64,000 bases of DNA from Fuerstiella sp. (GTDB taxonomy: Bacteria; Planctomycetota; Planctomycetia; Planctomycetales; Planctomycetaceae). The position numbers and the translations under genes are program-made. Positions 1,261-25,718 of this stretch are shown one piece after another. The stretch spans positions 1 to 64,000 of the forward strand of contig JAQWLN010000010.1 of NCBI GenBank assembly GCA_029247265.1. The letters are read 5' to 3'. The notes beneath the pieces are model-generated. The model was not told where the DNA came from. It saw only the letters and a program-made list of their open reading frames with translations, and ran no database searches. Each line of letters starts with the position of its first letter. Position 1 is the first letter of the stretch.

Positions 1261-2652
1261 CTATTGAACCACAAACTGAAACGCAAAGACATCGGCGTTG
1301 TTCAGCGTCAGCCGAAGCCGAACCTCCTGCCCCGCCAGCTTTCCAGATGTTTGCCCTGAAGTCCAGCGAATCCGGTGGTCAACGTTGTCGCCACCAAGTG
1401 GAGCACATTCGAATCCGGGAATTAGTACTCCGTCTGAATCACACAGCTGCACGATGACGGACCCTGCCGATGCACATCGATAATTCAGTGACAGAACAGC
1501 ACCATCAAACACCAGAGGTCGAGTCAGAACTTCGCCCGTACCATTCAATGCAACGAAGCCGTCTTTTCGGTAAGTGAACCGCCGAACTCGGCTGTCGGGT
1601 CCGGTGTAATAAGCTTCAGTCGCGTAAACCGACAGTTCGTCGGGCTGGCCTGGCAATTCCAGCAGGCCGTTTGTCATGTAATTGCTGCGGTTACCATCTC
1701 GATCCGCAGGGGCGGTCTGTGGAATGATGGCGTCGCTGAAACGTTGAAAGGTGATTCCGTCTCGGCTGGACATGAACACAGGTTCGACCTGCTGCGTTTT
1801 TGGCATGTACCGAGTTGGAAATCCGATTCGAATGTGTGGTGCTGAAGGGTACGGACGAATGGCATTTGTGTACAGATGCTGATGCGGAGTGTCCGGATAC
1901 GTAAGTGCGACCGGTGTTGACCATGTAACGAAGTCGTCGGAGGTGCACATCAGAATCGAACGCACTTTGTTGATGAATGTGCGGTGGTAGTCCACGTACT
2001 GTTTTGTCACGGGATCCCAGAACGCGAGATTCTGAGAATCAAAGTAGCCGTCCGTAATCACCGGTTCGTCCTTGATCAGCGACCAGTGAATAGCATCCGG
2101 AGATTTGAAAACGTAAAGCCCCTTTTCCCCCTGCGGCCGCCCTCTTGAGATCGCCTTGTATCGTGCGTCGGCCGAACATTCCGGATTCGCGTCCCGAAAG
2201 GCCACAAAACAATGAGTCCCGATGCCATTCCAGACGATGTTGTTTTCCTTCGAGCCGCCCCATTCGTAGAGACCAAGCTTCGGCTTCGTCCAGTGAATTC
2301 CGTCTTTGCTTTCGGCGTAACAAGTGACCTCAGGATGCGCCGCCTTCATGTCGATGGCATGAGAACCCCGGTAGTACATCCGGTAAATATCTTCGTCCTG
2401 AAAGATTGAGTAATACGCGCACGTATTCCCTTCCCATGGTTCGCCGGTCACAAGGACGACTTCCTGAGCCTCCGGCTGTTGCACCTGCAGTTGCACACTG
2501 TTCGACATGGAATCGATCAGATAACGATCGACAAACAGTTCACGACGAGAACCAATGTCAATCGCGTCAGCGGCAAAGGCTGCACTGCCGTACACAATCA
2601 GACACAAAGAGGGAATCGTGCGAAACAGGCAGTGGAACATTGGCAAATTCAT
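1261..2652 (-). CDS. Exported GH32-like beta-propeller protein (paralogue of 11280-12743)
   Basis: The chosen start gives a signal peptide ending AAFA-AD, then the motif DIGSRRELFVDRYLID that opens this planctomycetal family. The central part has repeated blades of the type YAESKDGIHWTKPKLGLYEW and WSLIKDEPV, typical of five-bladed glycosidase propellers (GH32/43/68-like). The last ~90 residues form a predicted beta-sandwich (from LSLNYRCASAGSVIVQL to the end), as in GH32 enzymes. I cannot assign the catalytic acids, so the substrate is unknown; a secreted glycosidase or glycan-binding protein is an inference. A longer reading frame extends to 2904 but would place non-signal sequence before the signal peptide. 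The gene is divergent from the ECF sigma factor at 2881, with a 228 bp shared upstream region. Confidence 0.8.
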   Translation of the reverse strand: MNLPMFHCLFRTIPSLCLIVYGSAAFAADAIDIGSRRELFVDRYLIDSMSNSVQLQVQQPEAQEVVLVTGEPWEGNTCAYYSIFQDEDIYRMYYRGSHAIDMKAAHPEVTCYAESKDGIHWTKPKLGLYEWGGSKENNIVWNGIGTHCFVAFRDANPECSADARYKAISRGRPQGEKGLYVFKSPDAIHWSLIKDEPVITDGYFDSQNLAFWDPVTKQYVDYHRTFINKVRSILMCTSDDFVTWSTPVALTYPDTPHQHLYTNAIRPYPSAPHIRIGFPTRYMPKTQQVEPVFMSSRDGITFQRFSDAIIPQTAPADRDGNRSNYMTNGLLELPGQPDELSVYATEAYYTGPDSRVRRFTYRKDGFVALNGTGEVLTRPLVFDGAVLSLNYRCASAGSVIVQLCDSDGVLIPGFECAPLGGDNVDHRIRWTSGQTSGKLAGQEVRLRLTLNNADVFAFQFVVQ

Positions 2653-2880
2653 GAGGCTGACTTTATTAGCGAGACGGAAACCAGCAGAATGCAAACAGCA
2701 TCGCAAATTCACCGGCAAACTGAAAGCATGCGTGAACGAAGTGGACCCGTCTCTCCGAAAAGAGCGTCGTCCGTCAGCACACACCCAAATACCCCGGAAA
2801 TCGTGGCTAGCGACACCGTCTGACTTTGTGCAGAATGCTCCTCCCTCGACCATCGCCCTTTCACACAGGTTCATCTGACG

Positions 2881-3450
2881 TTGGACAGCCTTCCCGACAA
2901 TCAACTGATCCAGCTTTCAGTTGAAGGCAGTCTGGAGGCGTTTGATGCGCTGGTGATCCGATATCAGGATCGGCTTGTTCATAGTCTGACCCAGGCACTG
3001 GGATCTCGCGACGACGCACTGGAAATTTCTCAACAGGCTTTCGTGTCGGCGTGGCGCCGTTTGGATTCCTTTCGCCAGGACGCCGCATTCTATTCATGGC
3101 TGTACCGCATCGCGATGAACGCAGCCATCAGTCGCAAGCGTCAGCAGCGACTGTCGACAACGTCACTGGACAACTACGTCGCCGCGTCCGGTCAGTCTCC
3201 TGTCGATCTGAACGTCGATACGAATCCGGAACGTCAGCTGGTGAGTGAGGAACATGTGCAATTGGTACAAGCCGCGCTGGGAAAGCTGGACGAAGAATTT
3301 CGGCAACCGCTGGTATTGAAGGAGATCGACGGGTTTTCTTACGACGAAATCGCAACGATCCTGGCAATTCCAATCGGAACGGTCCGGAGTCGCATTTTTC
3401 GAGCACGGCGGGAACTCACGGAGCAGCTGAAACGGATTTTTCCGGAGTAA
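2881..3450 (+). CDS. ECF-type RNA polymerase sigma factor
   Basis: The 189-residue protein has sigma region 2 at about residues 18-90 (ALVIRYQDRLVHSLTQAL... ISQQAFVSAWRRLDSF... FYSWLYRIAMNAAIS) and sigma region 4 at about 125-183 (LDEEFRQPLVLKEIDGFSY, DEIATILAIPIGTVRSRIFRARREL). This is the standard two-domain ECF layout. The start is TTG at 2881; no in-frame ATG lies just upstream, and an AGG lies about 12 bases before it. No anti-sigma gene is adjacent: the next gene, the SppA-like peptidase, is convergent with only 10 bases between stop codons. Its stimulus and regulon cannot be read from the sequence. In planctomycetes ECF genes without an adjacent anti-sigma are frequent. Confidence 0.93.
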   Translation: MDSLPDNQLIQLSVEGSLEAFDALVIRYQDRLVHSLTQALGSRDDALEISQQAFVSAWRRLDSFRQDAAFYSWLYRIAMNAAISRKRQQRLSTTSLDNYVAASGQSPVDLNVDTNPERQLVSEEHVQLVQAALGKLDEEFRQPLVLKEIDGFSYDEIATILAIPIGTVRSRIFRARRELTEQLKRIFPE

Positions 3451-7213: not shown

Positions 7214-9847
7214 ATGCTTACCCCTTACTACTTTCGTTTACTGCCCGTGGCCGTCCTTTTGGTGTGCCTCAGCTCAGTCGCAGTGAGTCAGACTGAGCAA
7301 ACCATGCCATACACGATGCCTGTCCGCGGCATCTGCGCTCATCGCGGGGCCAGTGACACTCACCCGGAAAACACACTGGCTGCGTTTCGAGAAGCCATCG
7401 TGCTGGGAACGCAGATGATCGAATTCGATGTAGCGCTAACCAGCGACAAACGACTCGTACTTCTTCACGACGCAACGCTGGACCGCACAACAAACGGCAG
7501 CGGACCTGTGTCAAAGGTCACTTTTGACGACTGCCGAAAGCTCGATGCGGGCTCGTGGAAAGATAAGAAGTTCAAAGACGAACGCATTCCGACTTTGACA
7601 GAAGCATTGACCATGATGCCACAGAACATCTGGCTGAACGTACATCTGAAAGGTGGTGCAGAACTTGCCCGGCAAACCGCCAGGGTTATTTCCGAGACAG
7701 GACGACTTCATCAGTGTTTTCTTGCCTGCCGACGTGACGCCGCGGTTGCTGCCAGGGCGACAGTGCCGAACGTCATGATCTGCAATATGGAGCGTCAGGG
7801 AAATTCACAGACGTATGTCGATGAAACCATCGCCGCGAAGTCAAAGTTCATTCAGCTGTACGGTGGCGATACTGTTGATTCTTCGCATACGAAACAACTC
7901 AGAGAATCAGGTATTCGTATCAACTATTGTTGCGCTAATGAGGCAGAGAAAGTCGCAGCACTGTTTGCAGCGGGCGTGGAGTTCCCGCTTGTCGACAAAC
8001 TCAACGACATGCTGAAAGTCGCTGATATTCAGGGCATTGAGCGACTGACTCCCGTCTATCGCACACGCCGAAAACAGGCGGGCAAAAAGGCGGCACCCGT
8101 GGTCGTTGATGGCGAAGCACAGATCGTTCCGGCGTTTGAGGACCAGAACCGGTGGATTCACCACGACCTGTGGGTGGAAACGGAATTCGATTCTGACAAC
8201 GATGGCCGTCCTGATCGTATGCACGTCAGCGTCACTCGTCAGCGTCAGACAGACACCGAAGGACTAAAGGTGGCTGCCGTCTATGTATCCAGCCCGTACT
8301 TTTCCGGCACTGCATCGGGCACTCGAGACTTCTTCTGGGACCCACGTCAGGAAATCGGCCAGACACCGAAGGAGCACGCAGAGCCACCTTCCATTGCGCA
8401 TCAATCGCGACGAGTCGTCATATCGAAGTCACACTGGAAAGACTGGGTTCCGCGAGGCTTTGCCGTGGTTCATTCCGCTTCGCCCGGTACAGGACTCTCG
8501 CAGGGGTGTCCCACCATCGGTGGCGACAACGAATCCCTCGCGCCGAAAGCTGTCATCGACTGGCTGAACGGTCGCGCATCAGGCTTCACGACACCGAATG
8601 GCAACAACAGGGTCGAAGCATTCTGGTGCACGGGCAAAGTGGGTATGACGGGAACTTCCTACAACGGGACCATTCCTCTGGCCGCCGCCACTACCGGCGT
8701 GGATGGACTGGAAGCAATCATCCCGATTGCACCAAACACGTCGTACTATCACTACTATCGCTCGCACGGACTGGTGCGACACCCCGGTGGATACATCGGC
8801 GAAGACGTCGACGTTCTGTACAACTACATCAACAGCGGCGATCCGGACCTCCGCGAAACATGCAACTGCAACGTCCGTGACAAAGAGATGGCCGATGGAT
8901 TTGATCGCGTCACTGGTGACTACAATTCGTTCTGGGCGGGACGTGACTACCTCAACGATCTTGCCCCTTTGAAGGCCCCGCTGCTGATGGCGCATGCGTT
9001 CAACGACTGGAACGTCATGCCGGAACACAGCGTTCGCATTTACAAAGCCGTGCAGGCGAAGGGTGTACCTGTGCAGTCGTATTTTCACCAGGGAGGACAC
9101 GGAGGGCCGCCGCCGCTGAAAATGATGAATCGCTGGTTTACTCGATATCTTTACGATGTTGAAAATGGCGTCGAAGACGACCCAAAGGCGTGGATCGTGC
9201 GGGAAAACGTGGACCGTCTCAAACCCACATCCTATGCGGACTATCCGAATCCTGAAGCCAGCACTGTCACACTGCATCCCGGTACCGGTGGCAAAGAACG
9301 CGGCTCGCTCGGACCCCAAAGCAGCACAAAACAGGGAACTGAAATACTGAAGGACAACTTTTCCTTTGATGGTGCCACACTTGCTCAGGCCGAATGGACT
9401 GAGCACCGGCTGCTGTACGTTACTGAAACTCTGAAGAAACCTGTCCATCTTTCCGGCATCGCCAGACTGAGAACGCGACTGTCGTGCAACAAGCCCGGTG
9501 CTAACTTTTCCGTCTGGCTGGTTTCGCTGCCGTGGTCCACCAACGACAAAGCAAAGATCTACGAAAATGTGATTACTCGCGGGTGGGCAGATCCCCAAAA
9601 CCGAAACTCGCGGTCGAAAAGCGAACCGCTGATTCCCGGACAATTCTATGACCTGACGTTTTACCTGCAGCCGGACGACCAGATCATTCCAGCCGGCCAG
9701 CAAATCGGCATGATGATCTTCTCAACCGATCGCGAATTCACCCTGTGGCCGGATCCCGGAACAGAATTAACAATCGACCTCGACGCAACAGGTATTGATT
9801 TGCCGATCGTCGGCGGACTGGACTCTATTGCTGAAGCGATTAAGTAA
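7214..9847 (+). CDS. Exported fusion: glycerophosphodiester phosphodiesterase domain + S15 X-Pro dipeptidyl-peptidase-like domain
   Basis: The 877-residue protein starts with a signal peptide (to about residue 25). Residues ~35-280 are a GDPD domain with His43-Arg44 (AHRGA), Glu52 (PENT), Glu70/Asp72 (EFDV) and His85 (LHDATLDRTT). The metal-binding Glu usually found in the [IV]-E-[IL]-K motif appears replaced by His144 (NVHLKG). Residues ~315-877 match the S15/CocE peptidase-acylase family: DSDNDGRPDR, nucleophile Ser482 in GTSYNG, Asp598 in FNDWNV, His629 in HQGGHGG, and a C-terminal jelly-roll typical of the family. The frame is continuous across the junction, so this is a real fusion and not two genes. 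The peptidase part looks active; the GDPD part may be altered. The substrate is unknown. It converges on the aminotransferase gene. Confidence 0.9.
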   Translation: MLTPYYFRLLPVAVLLVCLSSVAVSQTEQTMPYTMPVRGICAHRGASDTHPENTLAAFREAIVLGTQMIEFDVALTSDKRLVLLHDATLDRTTNGSGPVSKVTFDDCRKLDAGSWKDKKFKDERIPTLTEALTMMPQNIWLNVHLKGGAELARQTARVISETGRLHQCFLACRRDAAVAARATVPNVMICNMERQGNSQTYVDETIAAKSKFIQLYGGDTVDSSHTKQLRESGIRINYCCANEAEKVAALFAAGVEFPLVDKLNDMLKVADIQGIERLTPVYRTRRKQAGKKAAPVVVDGEAQIVPAFEDQNRWIHHDLWVETEFDSDNDGRPDRMHVSVTRQRQTDTEGLKVAAVYVSSPYFSGTASGTRDFFWDPRQEIGQTPKEHAEPPSIAHQSRRVVISKSHWKDWVPRGFAVVHSASPGTGLSQGCPTIGGDNESLAPKAVIDWLNGRASGFTTPNGNNRVEAFWCTGKVGMTGTSYNGTIPLAAATTGVDGLEAIIPIAPNTSYYHYYRSHGLVRHPGGYIGEDVDVLYNYINSGDPDLRETCNCNVRDKEMADGFDRVTGDYNSFWAGRDYLNDLAPLKAPLLMAHAFNDWNVMPEHSVRIYKAVQAKGVPVQSYFHQGGHGGPPPLKMMNRWFTRYLYDVENGVEDDPKAWIVRENVDRLKPTSYADYPNPEASTVTLHPGTGGKERGSLGPQSSTKQGTEILKDNFSFDGATLAQAEWTEHRLLYVTETLKKPVHLSGIARLRTRLSCNKPGANFSVWLVSLPWSTNDKAKIYENVITRGWADPQNRNSRSKSEPLIPGQFYDLTFYLQPDDQIIPAGQQIGMMIFSTDREFTLWPDPGTELTIDLDATGIDLPIVGGLDSIAEAIK

Positions 9848-11047: not shown

Positions 11048-11279
11048 TCTTCTATCGACTTTCATTGGACGGAAGTACTTATGCAACAGCGACTTGCGTG
11101 GACTCTAATATCTGTCCACGGCCTCCACAATCGATCGGTATCGACTTTAGCCACAGACCGAACATCGGAATCCCGATCACTCACCCCGCTGAGTGGTTAG
11201 TATTCAGCGGAAATGCCGGACTCTTTCACTCAGACGGCAGCATCCTGACACCGCGACTTTCAAGTGGATCGGCCTGAAC

Positions 11280-12743
11280 ATGGAGAAAACGAGAATCAGA
11301 AACCGCGACTGCAGGACCATCCTCTGCGTCATCTGTTTTGCCGTGGCCAATACGCTGGCATCAGATCAACTGTTCGGCGCCGACGATACACCAACGGCCG
11401 TTCACATCGGTTCGCAGCGTGAATTGTTTGTCGACCGGCACATTGTTGGCAAACTGAATGGAACAGCGTTGAGACTCCACACGCCGCAGCTCATGTCGCC
11501 GGTTTCGCCACCGCGACCTCACGGACACTACGCCACCGTGCTGCGATCCGCCAACGGGTTTCAGTTCTATTACCGCGGTGATACGCAGCCCGGTAATCAC
11601 TGGAAGAAAGGCTGGGAGCAATATCACGAAGGCGAAGTGACGCTGTATGCAGAAAGCAGCAACGGCATCAACTGGACATTACCGAAGCTGGGTATCTACG
11701 AAGACCATCCCACATTTCCCGCCGGCAACGTGGTCCTGATGAACGAGTTCCTGGTCAACCACAACTTCACACCATTCATTGACACCCGCCCTGATGTGCC
11801 CGCCGCTGAGCGATACAAGGGACTCGGCGGATTGGCATATCAACCACATAAAGAACATCTTGAAGTGCGGAAACGTCGCGGCCCTGGCGGCCTGAAAGCG
11901 TACACATCACCAGACGGAATCCACTGGACAAGGCTGCGAGAAGAACCCGTCGTGCCGGAAGAATGGGGCAAGTATTTCGACTCACAGAATTATGCGTTCT
12001 GGTCAGATTCTGAGCAGGCCTATGTCTGCTACTTTCGCCGCTTCATCAGGGGATATCGTGGCATCGCCCGCACCACGTCAAAGGACTTCATCAACTGGAC
12101 TCCCTTTGTCGAAATGAAGGCGAATCTCCCGAACGAGCACCTCTATACACCATGCACGCAACCGTACTATCGCGCGCCGCATATCTACATCGCTCTGCCG
12201 ACACGCTTCATGGCCAAACGGGGATCTGCAACAGACATTCTGATGATGAGCACACGTGGCGGCGATCGCTTCGACCGCGAATTCACTCAATCGTTCATTC
12301 GGCCAGGCATCGGAGCCCAGGGCTGGGCAAACCGCGCCAATTACGCGGCCATCGGCATCCACCAGACAAGTCCCACGCAGATGTCGCTGTTCCTGACCGG
12401 GGGCCGTCGATACGCTCTGCGAATCGACGGCTTTGTCTCGGTGAACGCTCCACTGCCAACAAGCGAATTCACAACACGGCTGCTGAAATTTACCGGCACG
12501 AAACTGGACATCAACTATTCGACAAGCGCTGCGGGACAGTTGCGAGTCGAAATACAGGACGCAGAAGGCGCAGCAATTCCGGGGTTCGCCCTTGATGATT
12601 GTGAACCCATTTACGGCGACCACATCGCACGAACGGTCAGCTGGAAGGGAGGAACCGATGTCAGCACTTTGGCCGGTCAACCGATTCAGCTTCGTTTCGA
12701 GATGTCCGACGCCGATCTGTACTCCCTGAAATTCGATGAGTAA
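11280..12743 (+). CDS. Exported GH32-like beta-propeller protein (paralogue of 1261-2652)
   Basis: Same family and domain order as the gene at 1261-2652: signal peptide, the opening motif HIGSQRELFVDRHIVG, propeller blades (YAESSNGINWTLPKLGIYE, YTSPDGIHWTRLREEPV, YFDSQNYAFWSDSEQAYVCY) and a C-terminal beta-sandwich (LDINYSTSAAGQLRVEIQDA onward). The two paralogues share motif order but differ widely in between, so the duplication is not recent. The family resembles GH32/GH43 propellers; activity is inferred, not shown. The ATG at 11280 directly precedes the signal peptide; an upstream GTG at 11193 would add 29 residues without signal character. It is divergent from the aminotransferase. Confidence 0.8.
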   Translation: MEKTRIRNRDCRTILCVICFAVANTLASDQLFGADDTPTAVHIGSQRELFVDRHIVGKLNGTALRLHTPQLMSPVSPPRPHGHYATVLRSANGFQFYYRGDTQPGNHWKKGWEQYHEGEVTLYAESSNGINWTLPKLGIYEDHPTFPAGNVVLMNEFLVNHNFTPFIDTRPDVPAAERYKGLGGLAYQPHKEHLEVRKRRGPGGLKAYTSPDGIHWTRLREEPVVPEEWGKYFDSQNYAFWSDSEQAYVCYFRRFIRGYRGIARTTSKDFINWTPFVEMKANLPNEHLYTPCTQPYYRAPHIYIALPTRFMAKRGSATDILMMSTRGGDRFDREFTQSFIRPGIGAQGWANRANYAAIGIHQTSPTQMSLFLTGGRRYALRIDGFVSVNAPLPTSEFTTRLLKFTGTKLDINYSTSAAGQLRVEIQDAEGAAIPGFALDDCEPIYGDHIARTVSWKGGTDVSTLAGQPIQLRFEMSDADLYSLKFDE

Positions 12744-12793: not shown

Positions 12794-14575
12794 CTACTTC
12801 GAGACGGCCGTTCCGATGCCACTGCGACCGTAGCCGTTGCCGCAATAGAACATTCGCAGGTGATCTCCTTCGCGAATCACCGTGGGATATTCGACCATTT
12901 GCTGTTCCCAGCCGCTGCCTGTCGGCGCCAGCTGTAAGTTGTCACCAGATTGTTTGCCTCGGCGCCAATGAATTCCGTCGTCAGATTCCGCGTAGCAAAT
13001 GGAATAATAGCCCCAGCGCGTACCGATTGCTGAATACCACATGCGAAAGGTTCCGTCATCCTGCTGGTGAACCACCGGACCGGCAACACCAATATCTTCG
13101 TAGTCGCGGTCCGGATCACGCAGCATCACGGACCCTCGCTTTTCCCACCGGATGCCATCGCCAGAAACAGCCAAACAGATCGTCTTTTGCTGATTCAATG
13201 CATGTGCCTTTCCTGTCGTGGGACAGCCTGTGTAATAGAATCGCCAGTGTGTCGATCCATCCGGTCGGACGACACGTAGAACCGCCCCCCCGGCGACTCC
13301 AATGGCATCCGGATTTCCATGCTCTCCGCTGCTGGCCAGCACTGGTTCTTCACCAAACCGCGACCAGGTCACCCCGTCATTGCTGGTCGCCAGTCCCATG
13401 CCGGGAAACGCACTCAACCCGGAACCTCGACCGGCATTCCCTGTGTAGTACAGATGCCAATGATCGTCGGCCATCCGGACCACATGAGGCAACACACACC
13501 ACTGAGCATCAAACGTGCCCGGCCCGCCAATGTCGAATAGGGGCCCAATGCGACTCCATTGCGTCGGATTTTCGATGGTCGCCGTGGCGAAACCGATTCT
13601 TTGCTTCTGATCGTCGCCGCCACCGGAATAAAACAGACGATAACTTTCCCCGACTCGTACGACCCAGGGATTCATACAGCGCGTCGAATCGAATTCCCCA
13701 TTGCGCGGAGGCAGTATCGGATTGCGCTCGTCTCGTTGCCATTCCACGGGCTGCTTCAGGCCTGAGTACTCATCGGTGTGTGACAGCCGCATCGACACCA
13801 CCTCACGACTGCTGCGAACGATGCCATACAAAGTGCCGATATCACTGCGATCCCAGGCAATGCCCTGCCCCGCAATCGGAGCAGCTACCGTGGCGACATG
13901 GTTCAACTCACCGGATTTCTTCGGAACGTCCAAAGTATAAAGTTCGGAATGATCATGACCGGTCACGTACAGTCGCCCATTCGGTCCAAAGGCTCCTCCC
14001 GAGTTGCTGTTGGGCAGAAAGCGTTGAATCACCGATTCGGGAAACGTCCAGACACCGGTCCTGTTCCATTCGTCATCGTAACGAACAAGCTGTGATCGTC
14101 GTACGTCCGAATCGCCATAGAGCGCGAAGACGATCCACCACGATCCGCGATGGCGTTCAATCCAGTTGATGGCCCCTTCGGTCTCGGGAAACTCTTTTCT
14201 TTCCAGATGCTCCAGTGTCTCTGCGTCAAATATTTCCACCGAGTTCTTCAGCGGAGCCTGCGGCCAGTTCGAATTGGCACAGTTCAGACGGCCGTCAATC
14301 ACCATGCCGCTGTTGAGATGAAGAATGGGAGACCCGGCCGGAGCCGTCCACTTTGCCAGAGATCTGGACGTTCCTTTTTCGTATCGGGCGATCGTGCGAC
14401 TGGCAATCGCATAGAACGACGATGCATCAACAGCGACAGCCTGATGAGCTTCAGGAACAGCATACCGTTTCAACTCGCGCACCGTGATTTCTGACGCTGT
14501 GCTGTCAGAAATCGTGTTTGCTGCAATGAAGGCCACGCACAGAACTGCAAGTCGTTTCATTTCACGATGTTTCAT
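12794..14575 (-). CDS. Exported two-part beta-propeller protein, glycosidase-like C-terminal propeller
   Basis: After a signal peptide (MKRLAVLCVAFIAANTIS) the first ~270 residues look like a WD40/SMP-30-type propeller (FYAIASRTIARYEKG, GRLYVTGHDHSELYTLDVP, GTLYGIVRSSREVVSM). The second ~310 residues are a five-bladed glycoside-hydrolase-like propeller with repeats such as RLFYSGGGDD, WHLYYTGNAGRGSGLS, WRFYYTGC, FRMWYSAIGTR and LRMFYCGNGYGRSG. The repeated [WR]-x-[FLM]-[YW]-Y-[ST] pattern is seen in GH43/GH130-like proteins. Substrate unknown; it probably acts outside the cytoplasm. ATGs at 14575 and 14560 are both possible starts. Its stop is 50 bp from that of the convergent GH32-like gene. 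Confidence 0.75.
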   Translation of the reverse strand: MKHREMKRLAVLCVAFIAANTISDSTASEITVRELKRYAVPEAHQAVAVDASSFYAIASRTIARYEKGTSRSLAKWTAPAGSPILHLNSGMVIDGRLNCANSNWPQAPLKNSVEIFDAETLEHLERKEFPETEGAINWIERHRGSWWIVFALYGDSDVRRSQLVRYDDEWNRTGVWTFPESVIQRFLPNSNSGGAFGPNGRLYVTGHDHSELYTLDVPKKSGELNHVATVAAPIAGQGIAWDRSDIGTLYGIVRSSREVVSMRLSHTDEYSGLKQPVEWQRDERNPILPPRNGEFDSTRCMNPWVVRVGESYRLFYSGGGDDQKQRIGFATATIENPTQWSRIGPLFDIGGPGTFDAQWCVLPHVVRMADDHWHLYYTGNAGRGSGLSAFPGMGLATSNDGVTWSRFGEEPVLASSGEHGNPDAIGVAGGAVLRVVRPDGSTHWRFYYTGCPTTGKAHALNQQKTICLAVSGDGIRWEKRGSVMLRDPDRDYEDIGVAGPVVHQQDDGTFRMWYSAIGTRWGYYSICYAESDDGIHWRRGKQSGDNLQLAPTGSGWEQQMVEYPTVIREGDHLRMFYCGNGYGRSGIGTAVSK

Positions 14576-14869
14576 GAGAACAAGTGCCAATTGAATGATA
14601 ATAGAACAATCTACGATGCTGAATCAGGACACCTTCGATTGCTCAGTGGTTATAGCCTTCGGAACAACGAAACTGGCGACCACGAACAGAGTACAGTTCT
14701 CACTGCGGTTACACCATCAGACCGCCAACAGCGCCAATCCGTTGAGACGATCGAAGTTTGTTGACGCTCCGCCACGTTTCTGAGACAACCTTTGACACAA
14801 ACGACGCCTGTCGCGTTTGTAAAACCATCGGCCGCCCACCTCACTCAGCTTCCGGAACCCACCGAAGTC

Positions 14870-16558: not shown

Positions 16559-17293
16559 TTAGCTGTCGGGCTGATCTGTCGAAATGAATTCGTAGATCGT
16601 GTCGATGATACGTTGATGATGTTTCGAACGGTTTAAGGTATTGCTTTGCATCAGCAGCACTCCGGTCAGGTCTCGTTCAAAATCGATCCACGCAACCGGG
16701 CCGGAATAGCCGGGATGCGACAACCAGCGCGACTTACCGTTGACTTCGCTGTCGTGAATCTGGAAGGCCAGGCCATAGCGCCCATTGGTTCCTGGCTGCG
16801 GTTCATACAGCTGACTTAGCGTTTCTGCACGAATGAGCTGTCGTCCGTTATGGACTCCTTTGTTCAGGTGCAACTGCATCAGCACACCAAGATCATCCAG
16901 TGTGGTATAAACCCCTCCACCAGCTGTGGACAGTCGCTTTTTCTGACGTTCGGCGACCTCCAGACCGAATGAGTCCGGATCAAAAACTCCCGGTTTTCTG
17001 GACTGATAAAGCGGCGCCAGACGTTTCAGGTCATCTGCGGTTGGCTGTATGGTGCTGTCATTCAGGCGCAGCGGCTGAAAGACGCGATCTTCCATCAGCT
17101 TGACAAACGTCTTACCGGTCCGTCTTTCGGCCACACAGGCAAACAGGTCAATCGGACGCCCGTACATCATCTTTTGCCCGGGCTCCACAACGAGTCCTAG
17201 TTTCAGACAGGCATCAACGAAGTCCTGCGGCGTCTTCGGAAAAAAGTAACCCGCATGCGCAGGATCATTTTCTTCAAACCCCTGTTGAGCCAT
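16559..17293 (-). pseudogene. C-terminal half of a serine beta-lactamase-like domain, cut off by an in-frame TAG
   Basis: This frame is the direct continuation of the gene at 17354-19027: both lie in the same reading frame, separated only by the TAG at 17354-17356. The codons between (QSVRLRHALSHTSGVPNNGW) match the LLTHTSG region of class C beta-lactamase/esterase (PF00144) proteins. The fragment holds the second motif as MMYGRP (Tyr present, usual Asn replaced by Arg), LQPLRLNDST-like sequence and the third motif His-Pro-Gly (LSHPGYSG). Alone it lacks the SxxK nucleophile, so it should not be active. Whether it is translated is unknown; the first Met after the stop is at 17293. Confidence 0.75.
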
Positions 17294-17353
17294 CCAGCCG
17301 TTGTTGGGTACACCGGAGGTATGACTGAGTGCATGCCTCAGCCGGACAGATTG

Positions 17354-19027
17354 CTATGGTTTCGATCCGTCGTGAAGGCGGACGTTGGCAAATTCGGGAA
17401 ACGTCTTTGCGATCGGATCGTCAAAGGACACGATGCCCGCATCAACAAGGCTCACCATCAGTGTTGCTGTAAACAGCTTTCCCGTGGAAGCCAGCCAGCA
17501 CAGTTCATCAACCGTAAACGGTTGTTTCGTTTCCAGATTCACCACGCCGTGAGCTTCTCGCATGACCACCTGGTCACGGTGAATCAGCAGAATCGAAATA
17601 CCGGGGTAATGGCCTTCCTCGATTACTGCCTGAATTTCGGAACGAATTGTCGCGCGGGCCGTATCGGACAGACTGTCGGAATCAGACGACTCACCATTTG
17701 CCTTCAGTCGTTTCAGGCGAATTCGACGGTACTCAATCTGACCACGATCCCCCTCCAGGCCAATCGGTCCGGATTCCGGGACAGCCATGTCGTCCGTCAG
17801 TAGTTCTCCGTTGCAGGTTGCATGGGCCATGCCGCCCTTTACGGTGACAGTCAGCTCGTTCCAGCCGCCAGCCCGGTACTTCTTCAGATCGTTGTACGGT
17901 CCGGCCAGTAGGTAATCTCGACACTGCAACTGCGGTTTGCGAATGAAGACGCCGCTGTCAGCATTGGGAGTCGCTCGAAATTCCAGTTTCAGAATGAAGT
18001 CATCACCGAATTCTTCGGTCGTCCAGAGTTGCTGGATACGACGACCTTCCGGTGGGGTCGTCACGACAAGCCGTCCGTTGATGGCGACATATCGCCCGTC
18101 GTCGCTGGCCGTTTTCCCGTCGAACGACACAGCCTCTTTGATCTCCACGAAGACCGGGGCATTGGGACGAGACTTCTTGGGTTTTCTGCGTGGCGGTGTT
18201 TTTCGAAAGCCCCAGCCGGTCAGGTCATGTCCGTTAAACAGACTTACGTAGCCAAGCTCAGGCTTAAAGTCGTCGGGTTCAGTGTCCAGATGTCCCAACG
18301 TCGCAAAGATGGGACGCAAAGCGGCCGCCCAGCGATCGTAACCTGCCGCGTTCAGATGCAGCAGATCGCGAAACCATTTCGGATCGGCGTCTCCCGATTC
18401 CTCCGCGAACAGAGTCCACGTGTCCACGACAGTAATTTGCGAATCACCTTTGACGGTCGCGTCGTACAGCTGGTTAACCTGCTGAATAATTTCTTTCGGG
18501 CGCTGCTTTTCCGCCGAACTGGGAAACATGCGACACAGTACGATCGGCGTCTTCGCATCATGCTGTTTGATCGCCCGAATGATCTTCTCAAAGTTTCGCC
18601 CGATCGCGTCGGCTTCGATACCCACTTCGATATCATTCGTCCCCAGCAGCAGGACGATGGCGCTCGGGTTCAGCGACAGTACGTCCTGCTGAAGTCGAAT
18701 CAGCATTCCGCGAGTCGTATCGCCACCGATGCCGCGATTGGCCAGCTTCATCCCAGGGAACTTTTCCTTGAATTGCGCGCCCCACCCCTGAGTAATCGAG
18801 TCGCCCAGAAAGACGACGGACTTCTGGTCCTGCTGTACTCGGTTCGACCATGCCGCATGGAATCGAGCCCAATTCTTCACGTATCCGTCATAACGACGCA
18901 GCGCGCCTTCGCCGGGCAGACCGACCTCCGACGTTGGCAGCGCAAACTGATCATCAGCCGATGCCACACGGGAAAACACACTGATGATGAGAACGAACGC
19001 AGAGATCAGTCGAACAGGGTTGTTCAT
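17354..19027 (-). CDS. Exported SGNH hydrolase - DUF1080 protein with truncated beta-lactamase-like tail
   Basis: Domain order: signal peptide (to ~residue 24); SGNH/GDSL esterase at ~50-245 with GDS (FLGDSITQGWG), block II Gly (NRGIGGDTT), block III Asn (LLGTND) and the Asp/His block (DLLHLNAAGY); DUF1080 (3-keto-disaccharide hydrolase/concanavalin-like) at ~255-455 with SLFNGHDLTGWGF, the DSGVFIRKP motif and GPIGLEGDRG; then the first ~85 residues of a PF00144 serine hydrolase with the SxxK motif (ASTGKLFTA). It stops at an in-frame TAG after 557 residues, and the rest of the domain follows in frame. The esterase and DUF1080 parts are complete and could still work on acylated glycans. ATG at 19027; AAGGTCC lies ~12 bases upstream. 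Confidence 0.85.
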   Translation of the reverse strand: MNNPVRLISAFVLIISVFSRVASADDQFALPTSEVGLPGEGALRRYDGYVKNWARFHAAWSNRVQQDQKSVVFLGDSITQGWGAQFKEKFPGMKLANRGIGGDTTRGMLIRLQQDVLSLNPSAIVLLLGTNDIEVGIEADAIGRNFEKIIRAIKQHDAKTPIVLCRMFPSSAEKQRPKEIIQQVNQLYDATVKGDSQITVVDTWTLFAEESGDADPKWFRDLLHLNAAGYDRWAAALRPIFATLGHLDTEPDDFKPELGYVSLFNGHDLTGWGFRKTPPRRKPKKSRPNAPVFVEIKEAVSFDGKTASDDGRYVAINGRLVVTTPPEGRRIQQLWTTEEFGDDFILKLEFRATPNADSGVFIRKPQLQCRDYLLAGPYNDLKKYRAGGWNELTVTVKGGMAHATCNGELLTDDMAVPESGPIGLEGDRGQIEYRRIRLKRLKANGESSDSDSLSDTARATIRSEIQAVIEEGHYPGISILLIHRDQVVMREAHGVVNLETKQPFTVDELCWLASTGKLFTATLMVSLVDAGIVSFDDPIAKTFPEFANVRLHDGSKP

Positions 19028-19314
19028 TAGTTTGAGCGGACCTTCGATGTTGTCCCGATACATTATGTAAGGGGACCTTGCCTAGCTGCGGCAGACGACA
19101 CAAACCCGAAAATACCAACGAGGCAGATACGCGCCGATGTCTTCTCGATCACAAGTGCGTTAACCTAACTTAACAGCGTCACTTTTGCACGAACGACGGC
19201 AAACACAGGCTCCGATCCTCAAATTTTCTCTCCACAGCGTGTGCAGAAGAAGACACTGATCATGTGCAAAAGGCTCCCGAAATACAATTTCCTTCCCGAT
19301 CCGGATCGCACCCC

Positions 19315-20724
19315 ATGAAGACCGATACCGACTGGCGATTTTTCCCGGCAGCATTCATTGTCGTTTTCCACAGCTGTCTGGCTCAGGCCGCACCACCGAA
19401 CATCATCCTGATTCTGACGGATGATCAGGGCTGGAGTCAGATGTCGGCGTCCATGGATCCGGGCATCCCGGAAGCTCAGTCGGCATATCTGGAAACGCCC
19501 AACATGGTCAGACTGATGCAGCGGGGCATGCGGTTCACCAACGGCTATTCACCGGCTCCGCTATGCACTCCCACTCGCCGAAGCATTCTGTGCGGGACAT
19601 CGGCAGCTCGCAGCGGACCGGAATTCAAAAGCGACTGGGTGCCCAAGAATCACATGACAATCCCCAGGGCGTTGAAGGCCACCAACCCAAATTACCGTTG
19701 TGCTCACTTCGGCAAGTGGGGCGAACAAATGATCTCAACGCCGGAAGAATGTGGATACGATGTCAGCGACGGCATGACGGGAAACAACACGGGCGGCATG
19801 CCAAGGTCACTCGGAATAGAAAGTGGCAGCCACAGCGAAGGCCCCCCGCATTTCATCAACAACATCGACCCAAAACTGACGAAGTCGATCACCACCAAAG
19901 CGATCGATTTCATGCAGGAACAGCACGAAGACGAAAAACCATTTTATGTGCAGGTCAGCTATTATGCTCAACACCTTTCCGTCGTGACTCGCGAAAAGAC
20001 CCTGGCAAAATATAAGGCCAGGGGAATTCCGGATCGAGGCTATACCGAGGCCTGGGCCGCAATGATGGAGGAACTGGACACCGGAATTGGTCGACTGATC
20101 GATGCCGTCGACAAATCAAATGTCACAGACAACACGTGGATCTTTTTCACCGCCGACAACGGTGGACGAGGCACGGTGCCCGGCGGAAACACATCACGAC
20201 CTGCCACAAACATCCCTCTGACCGGCGCCAAACACAGTTTGTATGAAGGCGGCGTGCGAGTTCCTTTTGTGGTGAGTGGTCCCGGAGTCGAATCTGGTTC
20301 CGTCTGCCGCGTTCCAGTCGTCGGCTACGATTTCCTGCCCACGTTTCATGATCTGGCCGGCGGTCAGTCACCCAATACGTATGACGAAGTCGACGGTTTC
20401 AGTCTGAAGCCATTGCTGATGGATCCCGAGGCAGATTTGCCACAGCGAAAGGCGGGGGCCGTCATCTTTCATCGTCCTAATCGTTTGTTTTCCGCTGCCC
20501 GAAGTCAGACACATAAGCTGATGGTGCACTGGAAGCGTGATGGATCGATCAATCGACGCGAGTTATTCAATCTGACGAACACTCCCACCGAAGAAGGTCA
20601 CAACATCGCCGCGAAACAAGCCGCGACAGCCGACCAACTGCAGCAACAGCTGTTGCAGTTTCTGCAAAGCGTAAATGCCGACAAACCACCAGCGAAGGCC
20701 AGACGACAGCGAAGGAAAAAATAA
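19315..20724 (+). CDS. Exported formylglycine sulfatase
   Basis: A type I sulfatase (alkaline-phosphatase fold). It has a signal peptide (to about residue 26, SCLAQA), the metal-binding opening ILILTDDQGW, and Cys84 in CTPTRRSILCG, the site converted to formylglycine. Further landmarks are HFGKWGEQ and FFTADNGGRGTVPGG (late metal ligands). It ends in a Lys/Arg-rich tail (KARRQRRKK). It would cleave sulfate esters, probably from polysaccharides, in the periplasm or outside the cell; the exact substrate is not readable. The ATG at 19315 starts the signal peptide. It is divergent from the SGNH-DUF1080 gene across a 287 bp region. An anaerobic- or FGE-type maturase is not in this window. Confidence 0.92.
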   Translation: MKTDTDWRFFPAAFIVVFHSCLAQAAPPNIILILTDDQGWSQMSASMDPGIPEAQSAYLETPNMVRLMQRGMRFTNGYSPAPLCTPTRRSILCGTSAARSGPEFKSDWVPKNHMTIPRALKATNPNYRCAHFGKWGEQMISTPEECGYDVSDGMTGNNTGGMPRSLGIESGSHSEGPPHFINNIDPKLTKSITTKAIDFMQEQHEDEKPFYVQVSYYAQHLSVVTREKTLAKYKARGIPDRGYTEAWAAMMEELDTGIGRLIDAVDKSNVTDNTWIFFTADNGGRGTVPGGNTSRPATNIPLTGAKHSLYEGGVRVPFVVSGPGVESGSVCRVPVVGYDFLPTFHDLAGGQSPNTYDEVDGFSLKPLLMDPEADLPQRKAGAVIFHRPNRLFSAARSQTHKLMVHWKRDGSINRRELFNLTNTPTEEGHNIAAKQAATADQLQQQLLQFLQSVNADKPPAKARRQRRKK

Positions 20725-20784
20725 AAAGCAGGCCGAATCCAGGAGCTTCAGCGACGCAGATCCGGCATTACAATGGTCTGCCCC

Positions 20785-20863
20785 AAGGGGGTCGGGAGTC
20801 TTTTTCCGACGAGGTCCTGTCTGTTGTCATCATCGTAAAACCAAAAAAGACTCCCGCCCCTTT
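20785..20863. repeat. Long inverted repeat, REP/BIME-like candidate
   Basis: The left arm at 20785-20805 (AAGGGGGTCGGGAGTCTTTTT) and right arm at 20843-20863 are inverted copies: 13 bases around CGGGAGTCTTTTT pair perfectly, followed by four or five more G-C pairs after a one-base bulge. The loop is about 37 bases. It lies 60 bases after the sulfatase stop and 120 bases before the next gene. It could be a transcription terminator (T runs lie inside the arms) or a member of a dispersed palindromic repeat family. No second copy was noticed in the window. Confidence 0.6.
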
Positions 20864-20983
20864 CGTTAACGCGGCAATGGGACAAATGACTATACTGCGA
20901 TGTACCGGAACAGCGTTCCGCTCGGTCGCGAGGTGCTCCGGGTTTAGCTGTTCGTTCTCACCGCTGTCAAAAGTATCTATTTC

Positions 20984-21958
20984 GTGTTCGATGCGGCCAA
21001 CATAACTGCGTCGCCAGTCTGGCTGAGACACGGCCTGCGTCTGGCAACAACGGCAGCTCTTCTGTTCGCAGCAATTGTCAGGCTTGATGCTAAGGACGAC
21101 AGCCTCCTGGCCGACTGCCGACTCTATCTAACTGCTGAGGAAGACGCGCAGAAATCTGTGACAGTACGCATCGCCGGATTCAGTGGAGAAATTGATCCGG
21201 TGATCAGAGCTCTGACGCAGCCAGCAACGACGGTGCGGCAGGATGAGACAGGATTGCTGGCAAATCAGACGTTTACGAAACCACAGCTGCAGCCATCACG
21301 AGCGGATGACCTGCTGCACTATTTCGTTCCATCGGCCTACGCGCCTTCAAAGCCGTTCGGCTTGCTGATCTTTATGCACGGTGGCGGAAGAACAACGCCG
21401 CGAGATCATCCACGACACGTCGTCTCACACCCCGACGATGATGGGGAAAGCTATGGACTGCAGCCATATTTTACGGATTCCAAATTTATTATCGCCGCAC
21501 CTTCGGCACCGTGGAAGGAAAAGACGGGGGCTCGGTGGAACGTACCATCCGCAGATAACTATATCCGTGACGTAATTCAGGAATGCAGTTACCGATTCAA
21601 CATTAGTGCTGATCAGATTTTCCTGGGTGGCTACTCGATGGGAGGCTTCGGTGCGTTCCACTTGGGCCAGAGACTGAATGACCGGCTGGCAGGCGCCGTC
21701 GTGTTTTCCGGAGCATGGAAAACGACGCACTGGAAAGCATGGACGGGGCTGCCGGTGTTCATGCGACACGGAAAGAACGACGCGACCGCTCCGGGAACGG
21801 AAGGCCTGCGATCTCGCCCGCGATTCACCGATGTGTTTTACTCCAGATCCGCCCACCAGCGACTGACCGAGCTGTCGATCGACCATCTGTATGTGGAAGA
21901 CGATGGCGGACACTCACTTCGAGGTGCCGCAGACGCCATGTCACAACTTCCGCGCTGA
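20984..21958 (+). CDS. Exported alpha/beta-hydrolase (esterase), truncated by in-frame TGA
   Basis: An N-terminal hydrophobic segment (LRLATTAALLFAAIVRLDA) suggests export. The hydrolase core has FGLLIFMHGGGR (oxyanion region), nucleophile GYSMG (LGGYSMGGFGAFH), a likely Asp in RHGKNDATAP and His in EDDGGHSLRG, so the catalytic triad is complete before the stop. The TGA at 21956-21958 is followed immediately and in frame by ATG and ~160 residues that look like this family's usual C-terminal domain. The start is GTG at 20984; no strong ribosome-binding site is seen. The truncated form might fold and act on ester or polysaccharide substrates, but the intact protein was probably ~486 residues. 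Confidence 0.78.
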   Translation: MFDAANITASPVWLRHGLRLATTAALLFAAIVRLDAKDDSLLADCRLYLTAEEDAQKSVTVRIAGFSGEIDPVIRALTQPATTVRQDETGLLANQTFTKPQLQPSRADDLLHYFVPSAYAPSKPFGLLIFMHGGGRTTPRDHPRHVVSHPDDDGESYGLQPYFTDSKFIIAAPSAPWKEKTGARWNVPSADNYIRDVIQECSYRFNISADQIFLGGYSMGGFGAFHLGQRLNDRLAGAVVFSGAWKTTHWKAWTGLPVFMRHGKNDATAPGTEGLRSRPRFTDVFYSRSAHQRLTELSIDHLYVEDDGGHSLRGAADAMSQLPR

Positions 21959-22447
21959 ATGGAACAGTACACACGAGATCCCTTCGCGCCACATGTCGTC
22001 GCCGTCTCACGGCGCGGCTGGAAATCTTCCAGCGACACACCGACTCCGCACAGCCGCTGGGTCACCATCTCTGAAACCGGGGCTGATGAGATGACATATG
22101 ACGCTGTCGAACTGAAAGGTCCATCGCCTTCGTTCAAAGAAACAGCAGAAGCCTTTGCTGCTCAGACCATACAGCTGGGCACAAGAAGCGTGGCAGCCGG
22201 ACTGGTCGACGCAAGAATTGAAGGCGATAACCGCGTCGCCGTGCAGACAGAGAACGTCCGGCGATTTTCGCTATGGCTGCATCCATCGATGGTCGACTTT
22301 TTCAGGCCCGTTCGCGTTCTAGTCAACGGGCAAGAGAGTGAGCATAAAGTCACCGCAAGTCTTCTGGATGCACTTCGCAGCTATCAGCGGCGACATGATT
22401 GGCGACTGATCTATCACGCCGAGATTAAATTGACGGTGGATCAATGA
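21959..22447 (+). pseudogene. C-terminal domain of the preceding esterase, separated by TGA
   Basis: The frame is the same as the upstream esterase and begins at the codon after its TGA, reading LPR-stop-MEQYTRDPFAPHVVAV. The sequence (RDPFAPHVVAVSRRGW, TPHSRWVTISETGADEMTYDAVEL, VRRFSLWLHPSMVDFFRPVRVLVNG) is a beta-rich accessory domain typical of planctomycetal exported esterases, and it has no signal peptide of its own. It therefore looks like a detached piece and not an independent gene. A single change from TGG (Trp) to TGA would explain it. Reinitiation at the adjacent ATG is possible but would leave the product in the cytoplasm. Confidence 0.7.
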
Positions 22448-22754
22448 CCGGTGTGTGAACAAAACGCGGGACGGCCGTACACTGGACGCTGCGTTTCGGC
22501 AGATTGCAACCGTGTCGTTGTCAGCATGCTGTCACGACCGACCGTCATGGATTATGCTGTCCATCAATCCTAGGTGTGACGCTGCTGGCACGCAACAATC
22601 CAATCAATTCGGTCTCGCGAATTCACATCTGCTAAAGATGGTTTCAGAACTGAACAATACAAGCACGACGCACCAGCGAGTGAATCATACTCACGAAACA
22701 TCCCAGGCAGCGACGCACTTGCTGGCGCTGCGTGCTGGTATTGAAACCGATTCT
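22448..22754 (+). other. 307-base gap upstream of a sulfatase, no gene
   Basis: The sulfatase reading frame stays open upstream to 22455, but the predicted residues lack signal or domain character, so I treat this as leader or promoter sequence. No other signal was recognised. Confidence 0.35.
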
Positions 22755-24089
22755 ATGAGAATAGCGTTTTTCACGACTCTGGTGTTGGTTTTTGGACTGA
22801 ACAGTTTGCTTCCGGCGTTGGAACAACAGCCGCCTAACATCGTTTTCATCCTAGCCGATGATCTTGGCTATGGAGACATTGGCTGTTATGGATCTGCTGT
22901 CAATCGGACTCCGCACCTGGATCGACTGGCTGCGGGTGGAATGCGGTTCACTGATTTTCACAGCAACGGACCGATGTGTTCTCCGACGCGAGCCGCTTTT
23001 CTGACGGGGTTATACCAGAGCCGTTTCGGTCGCCGCTTTGAATCAGCATTAAGCGGTTCTCGCCGTGATCCCGGTCTGCCGCTTAGCGCTGTCACCATCG
23101 CAGAAGTTCTGCAACAGGCAGGTTATTTCACAGGAATGTTTGGTAAGTGGCATCTTGGTTATGAAGCTCCCTGGCTGCCAACAAATCAGGGATTCGCAGA
23201 GTTCCGCGGACTGGTTTCCGGAGACGGCGATCATCACACGCAAATCGATCGTTCCGGTAACCAGGACTGGTGGAACGGGGAATCCGTCGCTATGCAAAAG
23301 GGCTACACGGCCGAACTCATCACTCAGCACAGCATCGACTTTATAGAACGTCACAAAGACGAACGTTTTTTTCTTTACGTCCCCCATCTGGCGATTCACT
23401 TTCCGTGGCAGGGACCAAACGATCCTCCGCATCGGAAACGTGGCATCAGTTATCACAAGGACAAATGGGGGGTGATTCCTGATCGCAGCAACGTACTCCC
23501 TCACGTCACCGCGATGATCGAGAGTCTGGACAGGAGTGTCGGCAGCATCGTGGCGACACTCGACAGGCTGGGTCTGAGCAAAAACACGCTGGTCGTATTC
23601 ACGTCAGACAACGGCGGCTATCTGGATTACGCAGGTGGGTTTGAGAACATCTCCGATATGGGACAGCTACGCGGTGAGAAAGGTACGATCTATGAAGGCG
23701 GACACCGCGTTCCGGCGATTTTCTCGTGGCCCGAAACGATCAAACCGTCCGTCTGTCACCAAACAGCGATGACGTTCGATCTGTTTCCCACGTTAGCCGC
23801 ACTGGCTGGAACAAATGCTAATGCTGCCATGCTGGATGGAAGTGATCTGAGCGAGACATTGTTCGACGGTGCAAACCTACCGGAACGGTCGTTATTCTGG
23901 CGAATGGGCTCCAGCAAAGCCGTACGCAAAGGCTCGTGGAAGCTATGCGTACAGGCAAAACGACCACCTGAGCTCTACAACCTCGCTACCGATGTGGGCG
24001 AACGAAAAAATCTCGCCGACAGGCGCCCCGAAGTTCTGAGTAATCTGAAGACTGCACTCGCTGAGTGGGAACTTGACGTCGAACACTGA
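22755..24089 (+). CDS. Exported formylglycine sulfatase (arylsulfatase A-like)
   Basis: The signal peptide is MRIAFFTTLVLVFGLNSLLPA. The sulfatase core begins IVFILADDLGYGDIGCYG and carries Cys75 in CSPTRAAFLTG, the formylglycine site. GKWHLGYEAPWLPTNQGF, HLAIHFPWQGP and FTSDNGGYLDYAG are typical of S1 arylsulfatases, including N-acetylgalactosamine-6-sulfatase-like members. It ends with the usual ELYNLATDVGERKNLADRRP block. It is followed after 12 bases by the next sulfatase, so the two are very likely co-transcribed. The in-frame extension to 22455 is not counted because it precedes the signal peptide. Confidence 0.93.
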   Translation: MRIAFFTTLVLVFGLNSLLPALEQQPPNIVFILADDLGYGDIGCYGSAVNRTPHLDRLAAGGMRFTDFHSNGPMCSPTRAAFLTGLYQSRFGRRFESALSGSRRDPGLPLSAVTIAEVLQQAGYFTGMFGKWHLGYEAPWLPTNQGFAEFRGLVSGDGDHHTQIDRSGNQDWWNGESVAMQKGYTAELITQHSIDFIERHKDERFFLYVPHLAIHFPWQGPNDPPHRKRGISYHKDKWGVIPDRSNVLPHVTAMIESLDRSVGSIVATLDRLGLSKNTLVVFTSDNGGYLDYAGGFENISDMGQLRGEKGTIYEGGHRVPAIFSWPETIKPSVCHQTAMTFDLFPTLAALAGTNANAAMLDGSDLSETLFDGANLPERSLFWRMGSSKAVRKGSWKLCVQAKRPPELYNLATDVGERKNLADRRPEVLSNLKTALAEWELDVEH

Positions 24090-24101
24090 TCAGGACAACT
24101 T

Positions 24102-25607
24102 ATGAAATACGTTTTCCCATTTCTGTGCTGGCTTGGCTGCGTTCTGTTGAACACCAGTCAGGCTGAAGCTGATCGCCCCAACGTGCTGTTCATCGCCGTT
24201 GACGACCTGCGGGTCGAACTGGGTTGTTACGGTAGTGCCCATGTGAAGTCGCCGAACATCGATCGGCTGGCGTCGCAGGGTACAGTGTTTGAACGAGCCT
24301 ACTGCCAGCAGACAGTCTGCAATCCTTCGCGAGCATCACTGCTGACCGGAATGCGACCGGACACACTGCGAGTGTGGGATTTGCCCACTCATTTTCGTCA
24401 GAACAAACCGGATGCCGTCACGCTGCTACAACTTTTCAAACACAGTGGTTACCACGCTCAGTGTGTCGGTAAGATATTCCATAACTGGCGACAGGACGAC
24501 TGGAAGGGCGATCCGGCGTCATGGAGTGTGCCGTCCGTGCTGCACTACAACAGTCACAGCAATGACAAGCCACTGGTCGACGGCGCAGTGCCGCCGAATC
24601 TGGCGTCGGGCGCAGGTGGCATTGAATGTCGAAATGTACCGGACAACGCCTACTTTGACGGACGCGTCGCTGAGACGGCCATTACGGCACTTCGCAAAGC
24701 CGGACAACGCGACCAATCGTTCTTCCTGGCCGTTGGTTTCTGGAAACCTCACACACCGTTCAACGCGCCGAAGAAGTACTGGGACCTCTACGAGCGGAAG
24801 GACGTTCCCGTTCCTGCACACATCACTCCACCAATCGATGTCCCCGACATTGCATTGACAAGTGCCCGTTATCGCGGTGGAGCCGATTCGGAAGTACTGC
24901 GCGAGATGCACCACGGCCATCTGGCAGCCATTAGTTATCTGGACGCGCAAATCGGACGAGTACTGGACGAACTGGACACACTCGGCCTGCGTAAGAATAC
25001 GATCGTCGTGTTCTGGTCTGACCACGGCCTGCATCTGGGCGAACACGGCCTCACCCGCAAGACGACAGCCTTCGAACTCGACGCTCATGTCCCACTGATC
25101 ATCGCGACACCTGACCATAAGCCTGGCCAGAGAACGGATGCTTTGGTTGAATTGCTCGACATCTACCCAACTCTGGCAGACCTCTGCGACTTGAGCGCAC
25201 CTCGCGAAACCGAAGGCGTTCCGCTGACGCCTTTACTGCACGCCCCCACCGGAAACGTCAAACCCGTCGCCCTGACACAGACTCCGCGTCCGAACTACTT
25301 ACGTGGCAAGCAGCCCACGTTCATGGGGTATTCAATCCGAACGCGCCGCTTCCGCTACACCGAATGGCGAGACTTCAGGACTGACAAGACGCAGGCTACG
25401 GAACTCTACGATCACGAAACTGATCCTCTGGAAACGGTGAATATCGCAGGGCACTCTTACCATGGTAAAACTATCGTTAGATTAGCGAAGCGACTTGAAC
25501 AGACGCTCTCGGGCGGTGAACCGTCGGCAGCCACCCTGGAAACAGACGACCGACGGGCCGACTCTTTGTCCCGTCTGAACCTGTCTGACGCAAACGCAAT
25601 TCAGTGA
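24102..25607 (+). CDS. Exported sulfatase, iduronate-2-sulfatase-like
   Basis: The signal peptide ends around SQAEA. The core starts [18 protein letters not shown], where DDLR instead of DDLG and the later motif [14 protein letters not shown] mark the iduronate-2-sulfatase-like (S1_7) subfamily. Cys73 in [11 protein letters not shown] is the formylglycine site. [18 protein letters not shown] and [17 protein letters not shown] are also typical. The substrate is probably a 2-O- or similar sulfate on a uronic-acid-type or galactan polymer, inferred from the subfamily. It lies 12 bases after the preceding sulfatase and 111 bases before the next, consistent with one operon. Confidence 0.93.
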
Positions 25608-25718
25608 CTGCTGAGCATAAAAGACAACTGCTAATCGTGCTTTCAAGCGTTAAGGTGCAGACGAAAGTGTTCCGTGTACAACTCGGCGACATCGACGCGC
25701 TGCTGGAAGACTGAGCCT

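Follow-up and report, generated by a model that had tools for sequence, protein, structure and literature searches.

The stretch of DNA that we analysed, from the marine planctomycete Fuerstiella sp. (64,000 nucleotides, the window), encodes a predicted exported protein in which a glycerophosphodiester phosphodiesterase (GDPD) domain is joined to an S15 peptidase. On sequence comparison, the histidine that occupies a metal-ligand position of this GDPD domain, His144, is the mark of one widespread GDPD branch and is not particular to the S15 fusion. This goes beyond an earlier note on the same DNA, in that the unusual histidine belongs to a widespread GDPD subfamily for which S15 is just one partner among many, and we regard this His-type clade as the more interesting result and the fusion as secondary. 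Neither the His-type clade nor the GDPD-S15 fusion was found described in the open-access literature searched. As a whole, the explanation we prefer, and hold to be rather probable, is that of a two-enzyme exported scavenging protein, which would combine a His-type GDPD with an X-Pro dipeptidyl-peptidase-type half.

The fusion gene (7214-9847, + strand) is a single ORF with an ATG start and no internal stop, coding for 877 amino acids that comprise a signal peptide, a His-type GDPD domain, a linker, an S15 catalytic domain and a PepX_C domain. The putative signal peptide (residues 1-26; 7214-7291, +) was read by eye, and the N-terminus of the relatives is hydrophobic too. Pfam matched GDPD (PF03009) at residues 43-146 (E 7.8e-33; 115 bits against a cut-off of 23.6), Peptidase_S15 (PF02129) at residues 330-630 (8201-9103, +; E 3.3e-57; 194.6 bits against 23), and the non-catalytic PepX_C domain (PF08530) at residues 651-859 (9164-9790, +; E 4.6e-38; 131.7 bits against 22.5). 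The linker (residues 276-305; 8039-8128, +) has the lowest conservation in the protein in the alignment of relatives. Residues 280-875 also matched NCBIfam NF003780, the Xaa-Pro dipeptidyl-peptidase subfamily, with 721.9 bits against a cut-off of 642, and TIGR00976 (CocE_NonD) was narrowly over its cut-off (73.5 against 66.3). The complete peptidase triad proposed in the earlier note has its positions correct, with Ser482 (8657-8659, +; motif GTSYNG), Asp598 (9005-9007, +; FNDWNV) and His629 (9098-9100, +; GGHGG) aligning with the triads of 1lns and 6nff. By family match, the C-terminal half is thus predicted to be an X-Pro dipeptidyl-peptidase-type serine hydrolase; it has the catalytic domain, triad and PepX_C in common with the Xaa-Pro dipeptidyl-peptidases of family S15 (1lns, 6nff; NF003780), but in the fusion a GDPD domain stands where their own N-terminus would be.

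That the two domains share one polypeptide, as first claimed from the letters of the window, is borne out by the single ORF, by the Pfam domains and by the genomes of the genus. The full-length fusion was present in 8/170 genomes of the family, all of one genus (G000, G014-G020), which corresponds to 8/8 Fuerstiella-type genomes and 0/162 other genomes of the family. The seven relatives are 66-85% identical to the fusion protein, and one of the fusion-bearing genomes is a single 8.9-Mb contig. In the three unsaturated pairs dN/dS was 0.080-0.109 for the GDPD half and 0.035-0.046 for the S15 half, which indicates that both halves are under purifying selection and maintained. Together with the occurrence in 8/8 genomes, one of them on a single contig, this selection argues that the fusion is not an assembly or frameshift artefact. 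The S15 relatives retrieved from the other genera (L013-L034, L044) lack an in-frame GDPD domain. Of the 415 plasmid records with a match, none covered 80% or more of the query at a single site. The S15 fusion is therefore real, fixed in the genus and narrow, and by itself a modest, genus-level novelty. No characterised protein of the same architecture was found. The pattern within this one genus would fit a single joining in the genus ancestor, in which a His-type GDPD, bringing along its signal peptide, took the place of the N-terminus in an independent S15 protein.

The GDPD domain (residues 36-275; 7319-8038, +) is considerably longer than its Pfam match, and NF006989 covers residues 34-265. 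An AlphaFold2 model of the domain (249 residues, 68 alignment rows) gave a complete barrel with a mean pLDDT of 96.9, which matched solved GDPDs over almost the whole modelled domain with Z 22-31, including Z 31.3 over 236 residues to 2pz0 and Z 28 to GlpQ. The short Pfam match, to the first half of the barrel, thus conceals a whole but divergent GDPD domain. A model of the full-length fusion had a mean pLDDT of 55, with a shallow alignment for the S15 part, and was too poor to draw on. The family motif HRG...PEN/H-T is present (His43, Arg44 and His85), and we took catalytic and metal-ligand roles from Bacillus subtilis GlpQ, as described in PMC7086022. By this comparison His43-Arg44 (7340-7345, +) would be a catalytic histidine and the phosphate contact, His85 (7466-7468, +) the second catalytic histidine, and Glu70 and Asp72 (7421-7429, +) metal ligands. 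Of the GlpQ-type metal set (Glu, Asp, Glu), Glu70 and Asp72 are there but the third ligand, Glu-152 of GlpQ, is replaced by His144 (7643-7645, +).

His144 sits in the motif NVHLK and stands opposite Glu in the five solved GDPDs that were aligned, as the earlier note had suspected from the sequence; GlpQ also has Glu at this column when aligned to the Glu-type paralogue of L108. We then found His at the 144 column in 80/80 loci of a wider scan, which used one genome per species and 17 starting domains and from which 80 of 171 relatives were kept. The scan relied on the patterns LG[AT][QH]MIEF and MPxNIWLN, the second of which stops just short of the His and does not include it. Likewise, 55/55 further domain matches, some of them re-fetched loci, had His at identities down to 40%, even where the Lys two residues downstream is lost. 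In a tree built without the 144 column, a branch (support 99) separated the His-type rows from the others, which have Glu or Asp; this was a quick method with no bootstrap, the Glu group's own branch had a support of 53, and the program warned that the Asp-type rows may attach to the His clade via long branches. The 41 alignment rows outside the His-type set (set A2) have E in 32, D in 7, H in one (a duplicate L108 row) and K in one (L004). The last two were left out of the tree and of the signature count, in which the 40 comparison rows have Glu in 33 and Asp in 7.

The His-type clade is patchy in distribution. Its holders include Planctomycetota, Verrucomicrobiota, Lentisphaerota, Kiritimatiellae, Bacteroidota, KSB1 and Calditrichota, and matches were found in 2/392 sampled genomes of the phylum (E 1e-60), in 31/296 genomes of the order to which the L063 genome belongs (E 1e-80), and in 13/291 genomes of that of L112 (E 1e-80). 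A Bacteroidetes contig (L108, 5111-6741) has a Glu-type GDPD gene directly upstream of a His-type one, in tandem. In planctomycetes, His-type genes also occur in tandem (L195, L196), and some proteins (L204, L205, L206, L208, L209) contain two consecutive His-type domains. Another planctomycete GDPD group (L045-L051), in which this ligand is Asp (LLDLKE), likewise includes fusions to other domains, for example one that is BNR/sialidase-like (L047) and one that is esterase-like (L048).

Comparison of 67 aligned His-type rows with the 40 others separated an unchanged core from an altered pocket. His43, Arg44, Glu52, Glu70, Asp72 and His85 were invariant in 67/67 His-type and 40/40 other rows, and Asp86 was nearly invariant across both. 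In contrast, Trp140, Asn142, His144, Gln167, Ala171, Cys190, Asn191, Tyr201, Phe212, Gln214, Asn237 and Phe257 are typical of the His clade alone, among about thirty clade-specific positions in total. Several of these lie on successive pocket strands, on or beside residues 140-145, 168-172, 188-191, 212-216 and 235-239 (numbering shifted from that of the model). No new conserved acidic residue was detected in the 67 rows, the fully conserved acidic residues being Glu52, Glu70, Asp72 and Asp86, all common to ordinary GDPDs, which suggests that no conserved second Glu stands in for the lost ligand. Clade-specific residues on successive strands around an unchanged core are what one would expect of an intact catalytic core whose pocket has been rebuilt. 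This combination, with no new acidic residue, does not resemble decay and speaks against a purely binding role.

A non-catalytic His-type GDPD that binds phosphorylated or anionic glycans or lipids, and so targets hydrolases as carbohydrate-binding modules do, would account for the many unlike partners (S15, PhoD, S9-like, esterases, LamG, propellers and beta-helix), and loss of the Glu could reduce catalysis. We nevertheless judge it unlikely, since His43, Arg44, Glu70, Asp72 and His85 are unchanged in 67/67 rows and since 53/80 members stand alone, where a pure targeting module would carry nothing. The earlier suggestion of a GDPD turned to a new substrate or to binding therefore divides: the fixation of His144 and of pocket residues in a distinct clade speaks for the new substrate, while the unchanged catalytic residues speak against binding, and altered substrate is favoured by these alignments over binding only. 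We give a similarly low probability to an ordinary GDPD, with His for Glu and no change of substrate, that is merely co-secreted with a second, unrelated scavenging enzyme and has no joint function with it. A change of this ligand is tolerated elsewhere, with Asp in 7/40 other rows, and we know of no connection between GDPD and S15 substrates; set against this reading are the thirty or so clade-specific positions and their placing on the pocket strands. On the altered-substrate reading, the GDPD half is most likely a secreted phosphodiesterase that is still active, has a metal site of Glu, Asp and His, and is attached to the X-Pro dipeptidyl-peptidase half to serve in scavenging.

We also examined the partners and surroundings of the 80 His-type loci, of which 53 are stand-alone proteins, several of them showing, by eye, a lipoprotein-like Cys close to their N-terminus, and 27 are fusions, defined as at least 140 extra residues on one side of the GDPD domain. 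S15 is the partner in 6/27 fusions. A further six have a C-terminal domain that we call propeller-like from a reading of the sequence by eye, four have the same domain with a beta-helix (two of these extend past the contig end), and two have a propeller-like domain at the N-terminus. Single fusions have PhoD (L084), S9-like plus PhoD (L063), calcineurin-like (L092), type I phosphodiesterase (L126), BD-FAE, LamG, and methyltransferase plus PQQ partners. The extensions of L089 and L062 have no family match, L062 being outside the Pfam scan; the N-terminal extension of L062 gave no match to the propeller model. By frame length, fusions to type I phosphodiesterase recur in 6/13 match-bearing genomes of one order, with L126/L171, L176 and L179 confirmed by Pfam and the other three identified by length only. 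While most partners are of other kinds, 4/27 fusions have a phosphoesterase (L063, L084, L092, L126), and these joinings to four phosphoesterase architectures favour a phosphate-containing substrate.

The 93 same-strand neighbours within 500 bases (79/80 loci had a target ORF) gave Pfam matches to Sulfatase (4), Phosphodiest (4), Metallophos (4), GH92 (3) and UxuA (3). Among 110 ORFs sampled from 326 farther ones, skipping ORFs of more than 1500 amino acids, Sulfatase, Phosphodiest and Metallophos were absent from the 25 families listed, which have counts of 2 or 1. By motif, calcineurin-like ORFs numbered 2/141 adjacent and 2/347 far. We grade this phosphoesterase enrichment as weak, because some loci are near-copies and Sulfatase and Phosphodiest may match the same protein. 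In other respects the neighbourhoods have a glycan-degrading character, as in the window.

These glycan-type neighbours (sulfatase 4, GH92 3 and UxuA 3 of 93), together with the LamG and beta-helix fusions, would also suit a His-type GDPD that cleaves something other than a phosphodiester, such as a linkage within a glycan, sulfated or neutral, with the same metal and two histidines. In addition, 7ww4 and 7wwc, named as a multidomain beta-1,3(4)-glucanase, match the barrel over their residues 5-240 (Z 26), so that a GDPD-like barrel does occur within a larger carbohydrate-related protein, which differs from the fusion by its partner domain; the glucanase site may be in the other half, and we found no paper on this protein in the open-access literature. 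Such a cleavage is in our view very unlikely, given that Arg44 and both catalytic histidines are kept and that phosphoesterases recur among partners and neighbours. A third metal ligand other than Glu is found in the sphingomyelinase D / phospholipase D enzymes, where it is Asp and not His. These spider and bacterial enzymes (3rlh, 9yd8) have a related barrel with a much weaker match (Z 15-17), and their substrates are lipids. As in GDPDs they use one metal and two histidines, according to PMC13079978. The closer likeness is to GDPDs themselves (PF03009; B. subtilis GlpQ, 5t9b/5t9c; T. tengcongensis, 2pz0), with which the fusion shares the barrel, the sequence family, the two catalytic histidines, the Arg and two of the three metal ligands, but from which it differs by His144 for Glu, the branch-typical Ala171, Asn191, Gln214 and Asn237, and the S15 partner.

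Starting from the architecture, distribution, clade, conservation and selection, which can be read from the sequences themselves, the two-enzyme scavenging protein would work as follows. The active-site metal would be held by Glu70, Asp72 and His144, in place of two Glu and one Asp, with His43 and His85 as an acid/base pair acting on a phosphodiester, and the remaining pocket would be remodelled to accept a different substrate from a plain glycerophosphodiester. Both domains would still be functional and co-secreted to break down organic matter. We advance more tentatively the idea of an undescribed subfamily whose site of two carboxylates and one histidine probably holds a transition metal rather than Ca2+/Mg2+, which may cleave a phosphodiester of an environmental glycoconjugate or polymer that ordinary GDPDs refuse, and which may have been joined repeatedly to a hydrolase for the same molecule or its product, S15 being one such pairing. 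If true, a widespread exported enzyme is annotated as 'glycerophosphodiester phosphodiesterase' despite a different metal site and pocket, and the phosphoesterase partners and surroundings would suggest a part in organic phosphorus or glycoconjugate turnover, to a good extent in marine bacteria. The abundant stand-alone members make this function cheap to examine.

Within the window we considered a propeller-like neighbour as a functional link to the fusion and rejected it on its genome distribution. The N-terminal part of the ORF at 12794-14590 (-) is ~35% identical (E 2e-47 to 4e-47) to the propeller-like domain fused to His-type GDPDs in L038 and L183, and it is also homologous to free ORFs beside His-type GDPDs in L092 and L094. 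The domain is present in 62/170 family genomes, most of which lack a His-type GDPD, so that a functional link in the window does not hold. Within the genus, it is near the fusion in G000 and G016, ~1 Mb off in G014, and on another contig in G015 and G018, with no match in G017, G019 and G020.

The window also contains sulfatases and glycosidase-like ORFs. At 16559-19063 (-) there is a GDSL lipase / 3-keto-disaccharide hydrolase / beta-lactamase triple fusion that is apparently split, where the ORF at 17354-19063 stops within the beta-lactamase domain (profile 3-88) and that at 16559-17293 holds the remainder (122-318); this could be a genuine break or a sequencing error. Four sulfatase genes lie at 19264-27125 (+), the first two of them separated by a carboxylesterase-like ORF. 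The fusion is flanked by paralogous ORFs at 1261-2904 (-) and 11193-12743 (+), which are weakly GH32-like or familyless, and relatives of these paralogues occur in the His-type loci L063 and L084.
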